64,000 nucleotides of DNA from Prauserella alba (GTDB taxonomy: Bacteria; Actinomycetota; Actinomycetes; Mycobacteriales; Pseudonocardiaceae), in NCBI RefSeq assembly GCF_024171735.1, contig NZ_JAMTCH010000003.1, forward strand, positions 1,538,841-1,602,840, in the 5' to 3' direction. Position 1 is the stretch's first letter; every line of letters starts with the position of its first letter. This document shows positions 6,763 through 57,606 of this stretch, piece after piece. Below the pieces are notes generated by a model. That model worked only from the letters and a program-made list of their open reading frames with translations, had not been told where the DNA came from and searched no databases. The position numbers and the translations under genes are program-made.

Positions 6763-6778
6763 GTATAACGTTCTATAC
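6763..6778. repeat. GTATAACG-NN-CTATAC palindromic motif, copy 1
   Basis: GTATAACGTTCTATAC, with arms GTATA and TATAC around a 6-nt centre, in a gap between convergent genes. It is flanked by CT on the left and GGC on the right. Three other copies lie at 36605, 57131 and 57541; the 16-bp cores differ only at positions 9 and 10. Confidence 0.8.
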
Positions 6779-6892
6779 GGCACGTCGCTGGTGGGTCGGC
6801 TTCCTCCTCTCCTTCCTGCCGTCGACGGGTCGAGAACCGCCCGGAAGGGAGGGAGCCGGACCGCGAACGCAGCGCGCGGTCCGGCGACTCGG

Positions 6893-36604: not shown

Positions 36605-36620
36605 GTATAACGGCCTATAC
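36605..36620. repeat. GTATAACG-NN-CTATAC palindromic motif, copy 2
   Basis: GTATAACGGCCTATAC followed by GGCG, in the 92-nt gap between convergent genes. Core identical to copy 4 at 57541. Confidence 0.8.
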
Positions 36621-36637
36621 GGCGCGGCGTTCGAACG

Positions 36638-54548: not shown

Positions 54549-55179
54549 GCGGGTCCCCTTACCATCGGCGCGAACTGTGGTCCCCTCGGTGGAACCAGAT
54601 CGTATCCGCGTGCGTTCCGGCCACTCATCCACCCGTGTACCACCGTCGGTCACGTCGGCGTCGGCGGTGACGTCGGCGGCACCGAGCAGGTCGGACATGA
54701 CCGTCGTGTTCCGCGGCGGTTGCGCGCGTCCCGCCGTGGCCGGTCGGGGGAGGCGACCGGTGCGGGCCGTGGGGGTTGTGACCCGTGGTGTCGCGGGCCG
54801 GGCGGGGCGGTGCGGCGGGGTGCTACGGGATGCCCGCGGCGCCGGTCCGGGGGCGCTGTGGCGGGTTCGTGCGTGCGGTGAGCTGCGGCGACGCGGGCCG
54901 CCCACGTCGCGGCGCATGTCGATCAGGGCGTGCGTGCCGGTGGCGGGTGGTCGAGTTGTCCGGTCCACATCGGCGGGTACCGCGGGATCGCGACGCGCGC
55001 GGGCGACCGCGGCCGTTCGGTGGAAAATGCGCAGTGCGGCGGAGTTCTGCATCCCTGCGCGGAGCTGTGGGTAGTCGGTCGTGCCCGCGCGACGCACCGA
55101 TTCCGTAACGTGCCGAAGGCTTTTCTTGTCGGTGATCGCCGGTACCGTGGAAGCAAATGCATTCCGAGGAGGTGCCGAA
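54549..55179. other. 631-nt divergent region before arc, no gene seen
   Basis: Both strands were read and no frame has a credible start, ribosome site and coding pattern together. The left end must hold the promoter of the 53745-54548 gene. The right end holds GAGGAGG of arc and less GC-rich DNA (around GCTTTTCTTGTCGGTGATCG) where its promoter probably lies. The middle is G-rich with no clear repeat or hairpin. Confidence 0.5.
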
Positions 55180-56994
55180 ATGCAACACGACCTTCCCGGT
55201 GGTCGGCACGAGGAGGCCGACTCTTCAGAACCGAACGGAGCGACCAGCGCGGGGTCTCCCGCGGAAACCCCGGCCGGCGACGAGGCCAGCCAGATCCGGC
55301 AGCTGGAGGAGGAAGTCGCCCTGCTGCGCCGGAAGCTGACCGACTCGCCGCGGCAGAATCGCGTCCTCGAACAACGACTCGCCGAGGCGACCGAGCGCGT
55401 CGATCAGCTCACCGAGCGGAACGAGAAGCTCGTCGAGACGTTGCGTGAGGCCCGGAGCCAGCTGCTGACGCTCCGCGAGGAGGTCGACCGGCTCGCGCAG
55501 CCGCCGAGCGGGTACGGCGTCTTCGTCGAGGCCTACGAGGACAGCACGGTGGACGTGTTCACGTCCGGCAGGAAGATGCGCGTCGCCGTGTCGCCGAACG
55601 TCGAGGCCGAATCGTTGCAACGCGGGCAGACCCTGCGGTTGAACGAGGCACTGACGGTCGTCGAGAGCGGAGGTTTCGAGCGCACCGGTGAGGTGTGCAC
55701 GTTGCGTGAGGTGCTTTCCCCGGAGGCCGAGGGCGGCAGCGCCCGCGGCCTGATCGTCGGGCACGCCGACGAGGAACGTGTCGTGTGGCTCTCGGATCCG
55801 CTCGCGGCGGAGGAGTTGAAGTCCGGGGACTCGGTCCTGGTCGACTCCAAAGCCGGGTACGCCTACGAGCGGGTTCCCAAGGCCGAAGTCGAGGACCTGG
55901 TGCTGGAGGAGGTGCCGGACGTCGCGTACGAGGACATCGGCGGCCTCTTCGGGCAGATCGAGCAGATCCGGGACGCCGTCGAGCTCCCGTTCCTGCACGC
56001 CGATCTGTTCCGGCAGTACCAGCTGCAGCCACCGAAGGGTGTCCTGCTGTACGGCCCGCCCGGATGCGGTAAGACGCTGATCGCCAAGGCGGTGGCGAAC
56101 TCGCTGGCCAAGAAGGTGTCCGGCGACGCCGCCGACGCGAAGTCGTACTTCCTCAACGTCAAGGGCCCCGAGCTGCTGAACAAGTTCGTCGGCGAGACCG
56201 AGCGGCACATCCGGATGATCTTCCAGCGCGCTCGGGAGAAGGCGTCCGAGGGCACGCCCGTCATCGTGTTCTTCGACGAGATGGAGTCGATCTTCCGCAC
56301 CCGTGGCAGCGGGGTGTCGTCGGACGTCGAGACGACGATCGTGCCGCAGCTGCTGGCGGAGATCGACGGTGTCGAAGGGCTCGAGAACGTCATCGTCATC
56401 GGCGCCTCCAACCGCGAGGACATGATCGACCCGGCGATCCTGCGTCCGGGCAGGCTCGACGTGAAGATCAAGATCGAGCGGCCGGACGCCGAGGGTGCGA
56501 AGGACATCTTCTCGAAGTACCTGACGGCGGACCTGCCCATCCACTCCGACGATCTTCTCGAGTTCGCGGGAGACTCGCAGGCCACCTTGGATGCGATGAT
56601 CCAGCACACCGTCGAGCGGATGTACGAGGAGTCCGACGAGAACAGGTTCCTGGAGGTGACCTACGCCAACGGGGACAAGGAGGTGCTCTACTTCCGCGAC
56701 TTCAACTCGGGTGCCATGATCCAGAACATCGTGGACCGCGCGAAGAAGGCCGCGATCAAGTCGGTGCTGGAGACCGACCAGTCGGGTCTCCGGGTGCAGC
56801 ACCTGCTGGACGCGATCGTGGACGAGTTCGCGGAGAACGAGGACCTGCCGAACACGACCAACCCGGACGACTGGGCCCGGATCTCCGGCAAGAAGGGCGA
56901 GCGGATCGTCTACATCCGCACGCTCGTCACCGGCAAGAATCAGGACTCCGGCAGGGTGATCGACACGGCGACCAACACCGGCCAGTACCTGTGA
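55180..56994 (+). CDS. arc: Proteasomal ATPase Arc/Mpa
   Basis: 604 residues. The hexameric unfoldase recognises pupylated proteins and feeds them to the 20S proteasome. An N-terminal coiled coil (about 45-95; binds Pup), two OB-like domains, then the AAA module: Walker [16 protein letters not shown], Walker [11 protein letters not shown], and [20 protein letters not shown]. The protein ends GQYL, the Tyr-containing tail that docks into the proteasome alpha ring. ATG 55180 is chosen for GAGGAGG eight bases upstream. Here it is separated from dop by four unrelated genes. Confidence 0.96.
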
Positions 56995-57130: not shown

Positions 57131-57146
57131 GTATAACGTCCTATAC
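57131..57146. promoter_or_regulatory. GTATAACG-NN-CTATAC motif, copy 3, over the promoter of the small HTH gene
   Basis: GTATAACGTCCTATAC overlaps a good -10 box, TACAAT (57144-57149). From that box the start point falls on the A of ATG 57157, a leaderless arrangement. A protein bound to this copy would block transcription of the 57157 gene. This is the only copy not followed by GGC. Confidence 0.65.
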
Positions 57147-57156
57147 AATGCGGCCC

Positions 57157-57546
57157 ATGAGTGATGACGTTTCTTCCAGCGAACAGTCGGACGCGTTGGC
57201 TGACGCAGGGGAGCGGCGTACCGCCGCGCCCGTCACGGCGGCGGCGGTACTCGCGTGGCTCGAGGAGACGGCGGAGGCGGTCGCAGTGGGGGAGTTGGAG
57301 GCCGAGGAATTGATCGCGCTGCTCGGGGAGTTGCGGCAGGCATCGACGGCGTGTGCGAACGCCTCCGACTGGACGTTGTTGGCTGCCCGTGAGGCGGGCG
57401 CCAGCCTGCGGCAGATAGCACCGGTGTTCGGCAAGGGGTATGTCCGCGCGCCTGCGGCGCGGCTCGAGAAGTTGCATCGCGAGGTGCTGTCGGCCGACCA
57501 GTTCCTCGAGCTGATGCGACGGCGCGCAACCGAGCCAACTGTATAA
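57157..57546 (+). CDS. Small HTH-like protein bracketed by palindromic motifs
   Basis: 129 residues, no family recognised. After ~25 polar residues comes a helical domain with TAAAVLAWLEETAEAVAVGE, LEAEELIALLGELRQASTAC, then LAAREAGASLRQIAPVFGKG and APAARLEKLHREVL. The part AREAGASLRQIAPVFG resembles the AR.AGASW.EIG..LG helix-turn-helix common in small actinobacterial DNA-binding proteins. ATG 57157 is chosen for the leaderless promoter ending seven bases before it; ATG 57148 overlaps the -10 box. Copies of the GTATAACG motif overlap both its promoter and its stop codon. Confidence 0.65.
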   Translation: MSDDVSSSEQSDALADAGERRTAAPVTAAAVLAWLEETAEAVAVGELEAEELIALLGELRQASTACANASDWTLLAAREAGASLRQIAPVFGKGYVRAPAARLEKLHREVLSADQFLELMRRRATEPTV

Positions 57547-57556
57547 CGGCCTATAC
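57541..57556. repeat. GTATAACG-NN-CTATAC motif, copy 4, overlapping a stop codon
   Basis: GTATAACGGCCTATAC followed by GGCG. The TAA stop of the small HTH gene (57544-57546) is part of the motif. It lies 50 nt before the aldo/keto reductase start. Confidence 0.8.
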
Positions 57557-57606
57557 GGCGGGGCATTAAGCGGCCACCCTGAGCCCGGCCAGCTACCGTG
57601 CCCATC

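Follow-up and report, generated by a model that had tools for sequence, protein, structure and literature searches.

A small helix-turn-helix-like protein and polar sites around dif: a probable replication fork trap in the Amycolatopsis/Prauserella/Saccharomonospora group

Results

The gene and its flanking motifs in Prauserella alba

The window, i.e. the whole stretch of 64,000 nucleotides of Prauserella alba DNA that was analyzed, carries on its + strand a gene of 129 codons plus stop (57157..57546) encoding a putative terminator protein, P0001. The motif GTATAACGNNCTATAC occurs in four exact copies, at 6763, 36605, 57131 and 57541, every one on the + strand, as indicated by a first-pass annotation of this DNA. 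Two of these copies frame the gene. The first (57131..57146, +; GTATAACGTCCTATAC) is an operator-type site without the full one-sided extension seen at other copies, and it lies over a putative -10 box, TACAAT (TANNNT; 57144..57149, +), located 7 nt before the ATG. The second is Ter-like (GTATAACGGCCTATAC with the extension GGCGGGGCATTAA; 57541..57569, +) and holds the stop codon TAA (57544-57546). Both overlaps had been reported in the first-pass annotation and were confirmed, as was the position of the two other copies between convergent genes, according to an ad hoc gene caller: GTATAACGTTCTATAC with the partial 3' extension GGCACGTCGCTGG (6763..6791, +) and GTATAACGGCCTATAC with the 3' extension GGCGCGGCGTTCG (36605..36633, +). 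Three of the four copies are followed by GGC and the one at 57131 by AAT. Shuffling the window 100 times did not generate a single match to GTATAACGNNCTATAC, even when up to two mismatches were tolerated.

The whole Prauserella alba genome (5.61 Mb, 11 contigs) contains eight copies, seven exact ones and one with a single mismatch, all located on a single contig of 1.97 Mb and within 593 kb. Five copies in + orientation were found left of dif (1.360, 1.546, 1.575, 1.596 and 1.596 Mb) and three in - orientation right of it (1.720, 1.836 and 1.952 Mb). The dimer-resolution site dif (1.650 Mb) is the sole match in this genome to an actinobacterial dif pattern, and it falls in the gap where the orientation of the motif flips; the copy at 57541 in the window is the innermost of the left side, 53.7 kb away from it. 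The dif proposed for Frankia alni contains the same pattern (PMC3025954).

Conservation of the locus and features of P0001

A scan of named genomes yielded 73 orthologue loci, belonging to Prauserella, Saccharomonospora, Amycolatopsis, Qaidamihabitans, Tamaricihabitans and two metagenome bins. An upstream site (up to two mismatches) was present at all 73, and the predicted start lies 8-10 nt past it at 69. A TANNNT box begins in the right arm of this site, or at most 4 nt after it, at every locus, a count of little weight alone because the TATAC of the site itself provides the TA in most cases. Of the two flanking copies pointed out by the first-pass annotation, the upstream one is thus a constant feature of the gene, whereas the downstream one, at or just past the stop codon, is present at 38 loci and absent from 35. 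The proteasomal ATPase gene ARC (55081-56994 in the window) neighbours the P0001 gene at 71 of the 73 loci, the two others (L104 and L110) being contigs that end less than 300 bases upstream, which indicates that in this group the proteasome locus remains close to the terminus. An aldo/keto reductase gene was found at 72 loci.

Alignment of 30 orthologues revealed strong conservation of the C-terminal half of the protein. The AlphaFold2 model of P0001 (pLDDT 84.8) is all-helical, with five helices including a long one (residues 49-79) and two HTH-like ones (84-91 and 97-109). Pfam gave no match to P0001 and NCBIfam just two sub-threshold ones (E about 0.04), while the 30 orthologues matched six Pfam families weakly, none of them convincingly (best E 0.046). 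A sequence search of the PDB returned four weak matches, the best one to an aspartate-semialdehyde dehydrogenase (E 0.007). Comparison of the model with the PDB by Foldseek produced no convincing match (best E 2.3) and no Tus- or RTP-like fold, and PHROGs did not match P0001 or its distant homologues P0002 and P0003.

Distribution of the gene and of the motif

A strong orthologue of P0001 (E ≤1.4e-40) was identified in 37 of 150 genomes of the family, Prauserella alba included, covering 10 genera; two further genomes, G126 and G005, encode weak homologues. The gene was matched once per genome. With up to one mismatch allowed, the motif was found in all 37 genomes, in 4 to 15 copies each and 361 in total. 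The 113 other genomes contain one copy altogether, in G052, where it is probably due to chance. A reversed control pattern searched at the same tolerance matched only seven times over the 150 genomes. The motif is therefore far above chance and, the single copy in G052 apart, missing where a strong orthologue is missing, both of which the first-pass annotation had linked to its interpretation.

A broad pattern, KTAYARCGNNCTRTAM, was found in 0 to 4 copies per genome, without any array, in 80 of the 113 genomes devoid of a strong orthologue. Its reversed control gave similarly low numbers in the same genomes, but 20 matches in G025, where a different palindromic repeat may exist. A search with the family profile in 396 genomes drawn across the phylum, in which at most 11 candidates were scored per genome, matched that of Prauserella alba alone, and tblastn with P0001 gave no match among plasmids and phages. 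The system has so far been found only in the Amycolatopsis/Prauserella/Saccharomonospora group.

Polarity about dif and position of the terminus

In 21 genomes, Prauserella alba included, all 186 motif copies on dif-bearing contigs, of which 151 are exact, point at dif, i.e. two opposed groups of sites converge on dif as in a fork trap. Of the 207 matches found in these genomes, the other 21 are on contigs or replicons without dif and were omitted. Outside this count, the one copy on the dif contig of G015 and the copies on that of G133 (at least three) agree in polarity. The dif pattern gave a single match in each of 22 relatives out of 22, as it did in Prauserella alba, and in all 11 chromosomes with both on one contig, dif is separated from dnaA by 0.485-0.513 of the circle. 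The first-pass annotation had proposed either an autoregulated DNA-binding protein with its binding sites or a small mobile unit, the motifs being its ends and empty sites; neither of these readings took in the central feature, the convergence of a polar array on the replication terminus.

In the 12 genomes whose length entered the calculation, G077 being only a contig, 62% of 124 sites are located within one tenth of the half-chromosome from dif and all of them within 44%. Over the 21 genomes the innermost sites are 28-222 kb from dif, so that a trap would be wide, which counts against it. In Prauserella alba, the GC skew calculated in 10-kb steps was +0.02 to +0.08 at 1.52-1.63 Mb, about 0 at 1.63-1.71 Mb and -0.035 to -0.084 beyond, and wider samples agreed. 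Since this switch falls between the innermost opposed sites (1.596 and 1.720 Mb), the replichores meet inside this pair. In G111 the skew switches near dif and the antipode, not at a site; skew does not separate trap from no trap there, and its position neither supports nor excludes one.

The flanks of 93 sampled site loci formed 49 groups in a blastn comparison and 48 with tblastx, with no similarity detected between groups, and the polarity is therefore not that of one inherited set. It seems that sites arose on many occasions, each time in the same sense, although shared sites of great age could go unnoticed in this flank comparison.

Anatomy and context of the sites

The core deduced from the 93 sites, YGTATAACGNYCTATAC, is a GTATA palindrome around an asymmetric centre, CGNNC. 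Beyond the core, conservation is clear on the 3' side alone, where it reads GGCNNGGCTTTGG and fades by about position 30, while the 5' side shows no more than a weak preference at -7 and -5. With a core so close to a palindrome, the site can owe its polarity only to the centre and to this extension, which faces dif wherever polarity was measured; together they make the site asymmetric, as a one-way fork block would have it. The extension scored on average 7.42 of 11 in 79 sites away from the gene (39 of them at 8 or more), 6.92 in 37 distinct sites downstream of the gene (17 at 8 or more) and 5.33 in 64 distinct upstream sites, none of which attained 8; the score of the latter is reduced yet above chance. 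The mirror side of the 79 sites scored 3.27, again with none at 8 or more, and random positions 3.26, with 0.2% at 8 or more. The consensus and the scores come from largely overlapping sets of sites, which biases the absolute scores upward; the informative part is how they differ from those of the mirror side and of the promoter sites.

According to the ad hoc gene caller, 81 of the 93 sites, among which 14 are gene-linked, are intergenic, vs 282 of 1860 control positions. Of the 12 sites placed inside a gene, at least three (L199, L207 and L211) are gene-linked ones, probably so classified because the caller picked too early a start. The genes surrounding the intergenic sites are in tandem in 43 cases, convergent in 20 and divergent in 16, two sites being at locus edges, and no bias towards promoters is apparent. 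Read in the orientation of the site, the left neighbour runs forwards in 49 cases and backwards in 30, so gene orientation cannot explain the uniform polarity.

Discussion

A probable fork trap

The sites converge on dif and are asymmetric, they occur in the genomes that carry the gene, and they extend over its promoter region. This layout equals that of Tus/Ter and RTP/Ter, from which we infer that the small HTH protein and its polar Ter sites probably constitute a replication fork trap around dif. The arrangement of gene and site points to a dedicated protein with a site in its own promoter, to which it would bind. P0001, probably as a dimer, would recognize the GTATA...TATAC core and, when bound at its own promoter, would repress transcription. 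The one-sided extension facing dif would make the P0001-Ter complex block replisomes leaving the terminus, while replisomes arriving from the origin would pass it. That P0001 may be an autoregulated DNA-binding protein with its own binding sites, the first of the two earlier readings, fits the joint presence of gene and motif (37 of 37 genomes) and the constant upstream site, and it is contained in this scheme.

Comparison with known systems

Tus/Ter of Enterobacterales likewise comprises about 10 polar sites, scattered over a wide region around dif, and its gene adjoins a site in its promoter. P0001 (129 aa) differs from Tus, whose profile covers 296 positions, the core described here is nearly palindromic, and the Tus family PF05472 was matched in none of 11 genomes, the E. 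coli control being positive. RTP of Bacillus subtilis folds as a winged-helix dimer. It resembles P0001 as a small DNA-binding protein (its profile has 113 positions), binding being presumed for P0001, but PF02334 was also matched in none of the 11 genomes, the B. subtilis control being positive. The sites are also unrelated, a 16-bp core with a 13-bp extension here vs two half-sites for RTP, each bound by a dimer.

The sites of both known systems point to dif and block forks leaving it (PMC6549158, PMC10331603, PMC13220808, PMC8707476), and the tus and rtp genes are both autoregulated via a promoter site (PMC10331603). Like the sites described here, RTP/Ter sites consist of a stronger and a weaker part, converge on dif and include one in the promoter (PMC10331603, PMC13220808). 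In so-called type I Tus/Ter traps, the sites beside the gene are those nearest the terminus on their side, as is the case in Prauserella alba (PMC8707476).

Alternative explanations

The main rival is a polar role in chromosome segregation without fork arrest, in which the protein would mark the replichores near dif and a translocase, a condensin or the decatenation machinery would act directionally. Polarity and position are accounted for equally well by such a terminus-organizing system, and MatP/matS and KOPS/FtsK provide examples of motifs confined to, or polarized about, the terminus. KOPS are short, very frequent octamers read by FtsK itself, and they point at dif, as do the sites described here. 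The matS sites are palindromic and symmetric, non-polar, and spread through the terminus domain; a MatP-like symmetric system was rejected for the present sites, which are polar and asymmetric. The 4 to 15 copies per genome, none of them within 28 kb of dif in the 21 genomes measured, are moreover few and lie far out for a system that steers a translocase to dif, and the operator overlap and the layout match those of terminator proteins. We regard this explanation as unlikely, though as one to be kept in mind. A zone where KOPS converge is mentioned in PMC3025954.

Other explanations can be based on the gene and its motif without reference to the terminus. An ordinary transcription regulator whose regulon happens to lie near the terminus could possess the HTH-like model of P0001 and, at all 73 named loci, the site at its own -10-like box. 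Yet the sites show no preference for promoters, all 186 are oriented by replichore, and the 48-49 groups of flanks leave no stable regulon; a transcription-factor regulon was rejected as the sites are not at the promoters of a gene set, and this explanation appears very improbable. The mobile unit of the first-pass annotation, with the motifs as its ends and empty target sites, is the least credible of all and can practically be dismissed. It could call on the two copies flanking the gene, in the window and at 38 of the 73 named loci, but neither multiple insertions nor a variable location of such a unit were observed: the gene is matched once per genome in a fixed neighbourhood (ARC at 71 loci), the downstream copy is absent from 35 loci, and the sites are polarized about dif.

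Significance of a further trap

Only two fork-trap systems, Tus and RTP, are named in the excerpts at hand of PMC6549158, PMC10331603 and PMC13220808, where they are said to be confined to a few clades and are judged convergent. None of the titles and abstracts shown among the papers listed, restricted to open-licence ones, described an actinobacterial fork trap, and the sole mention in PMC7398561 is the title of a reference. If the fork trap proposed here is real, a third one, in large GC-rich actinobacterial chromosomes, shows that selection for a trap recurs. As one family holds genera with and without it, a comparison is available by which the long-open question of the purpose of fork traps becomes testable. 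The site design also offers a new model for a one-way fork block by a nearly symmetric protein-DNA complex.

Distant relatives and possible origin

Two distant homologues of P0001 are informative as to its origin. P0002 (33% identity, G126) is directly preceded by two tandem TTACAGCGNNCTGTAA palindromes (L153 8683-8719), which share their spacing and CGNNC centre with the main motif. They are the only exact copies in this 12-Mb genome, and no array of this motif was found. At the start of the gene for P0003 (35% identity, G005) lies a related palindrome with a shorter spacer, TTTATAACTGCTATAAA (L154 8800-8816), searched for within its 18-kb locus. Changes in the protein thus appear to be accompanied by changes in its site, an argument in favour of binding, and these loci suggest that the ancestor was a plain autoregulator. 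On balance, and with less assurance than for the fork trap as such, we favour a third trap, independent of Tus and RTP and, according to our searches, the first in Actinobacteria, in which an HTH protein would bind the near-palindromic core and the GGCNNGGCTTTGG extension facing dif would give the blocking polarity; an autoregulator, like the distant relatives whose sites seemingly occur only at their own promoters, would have been recruited to the terminus.

GntR/UTRA and DUF2786 genes were observed near P0002, which perhaps sits on an integrative element, a guess based on these neighbours; that P0003 is on a mobile element is likewise a guess. Finally, a 25-kb contig (G090:C2) carries a one-mismatch copy of the main motif, GTATAACGAGCTATTC (L259 5249-5264), with a loosely similar 3' flank, and this contig is possibly a plasmid with its own Ter-like site.
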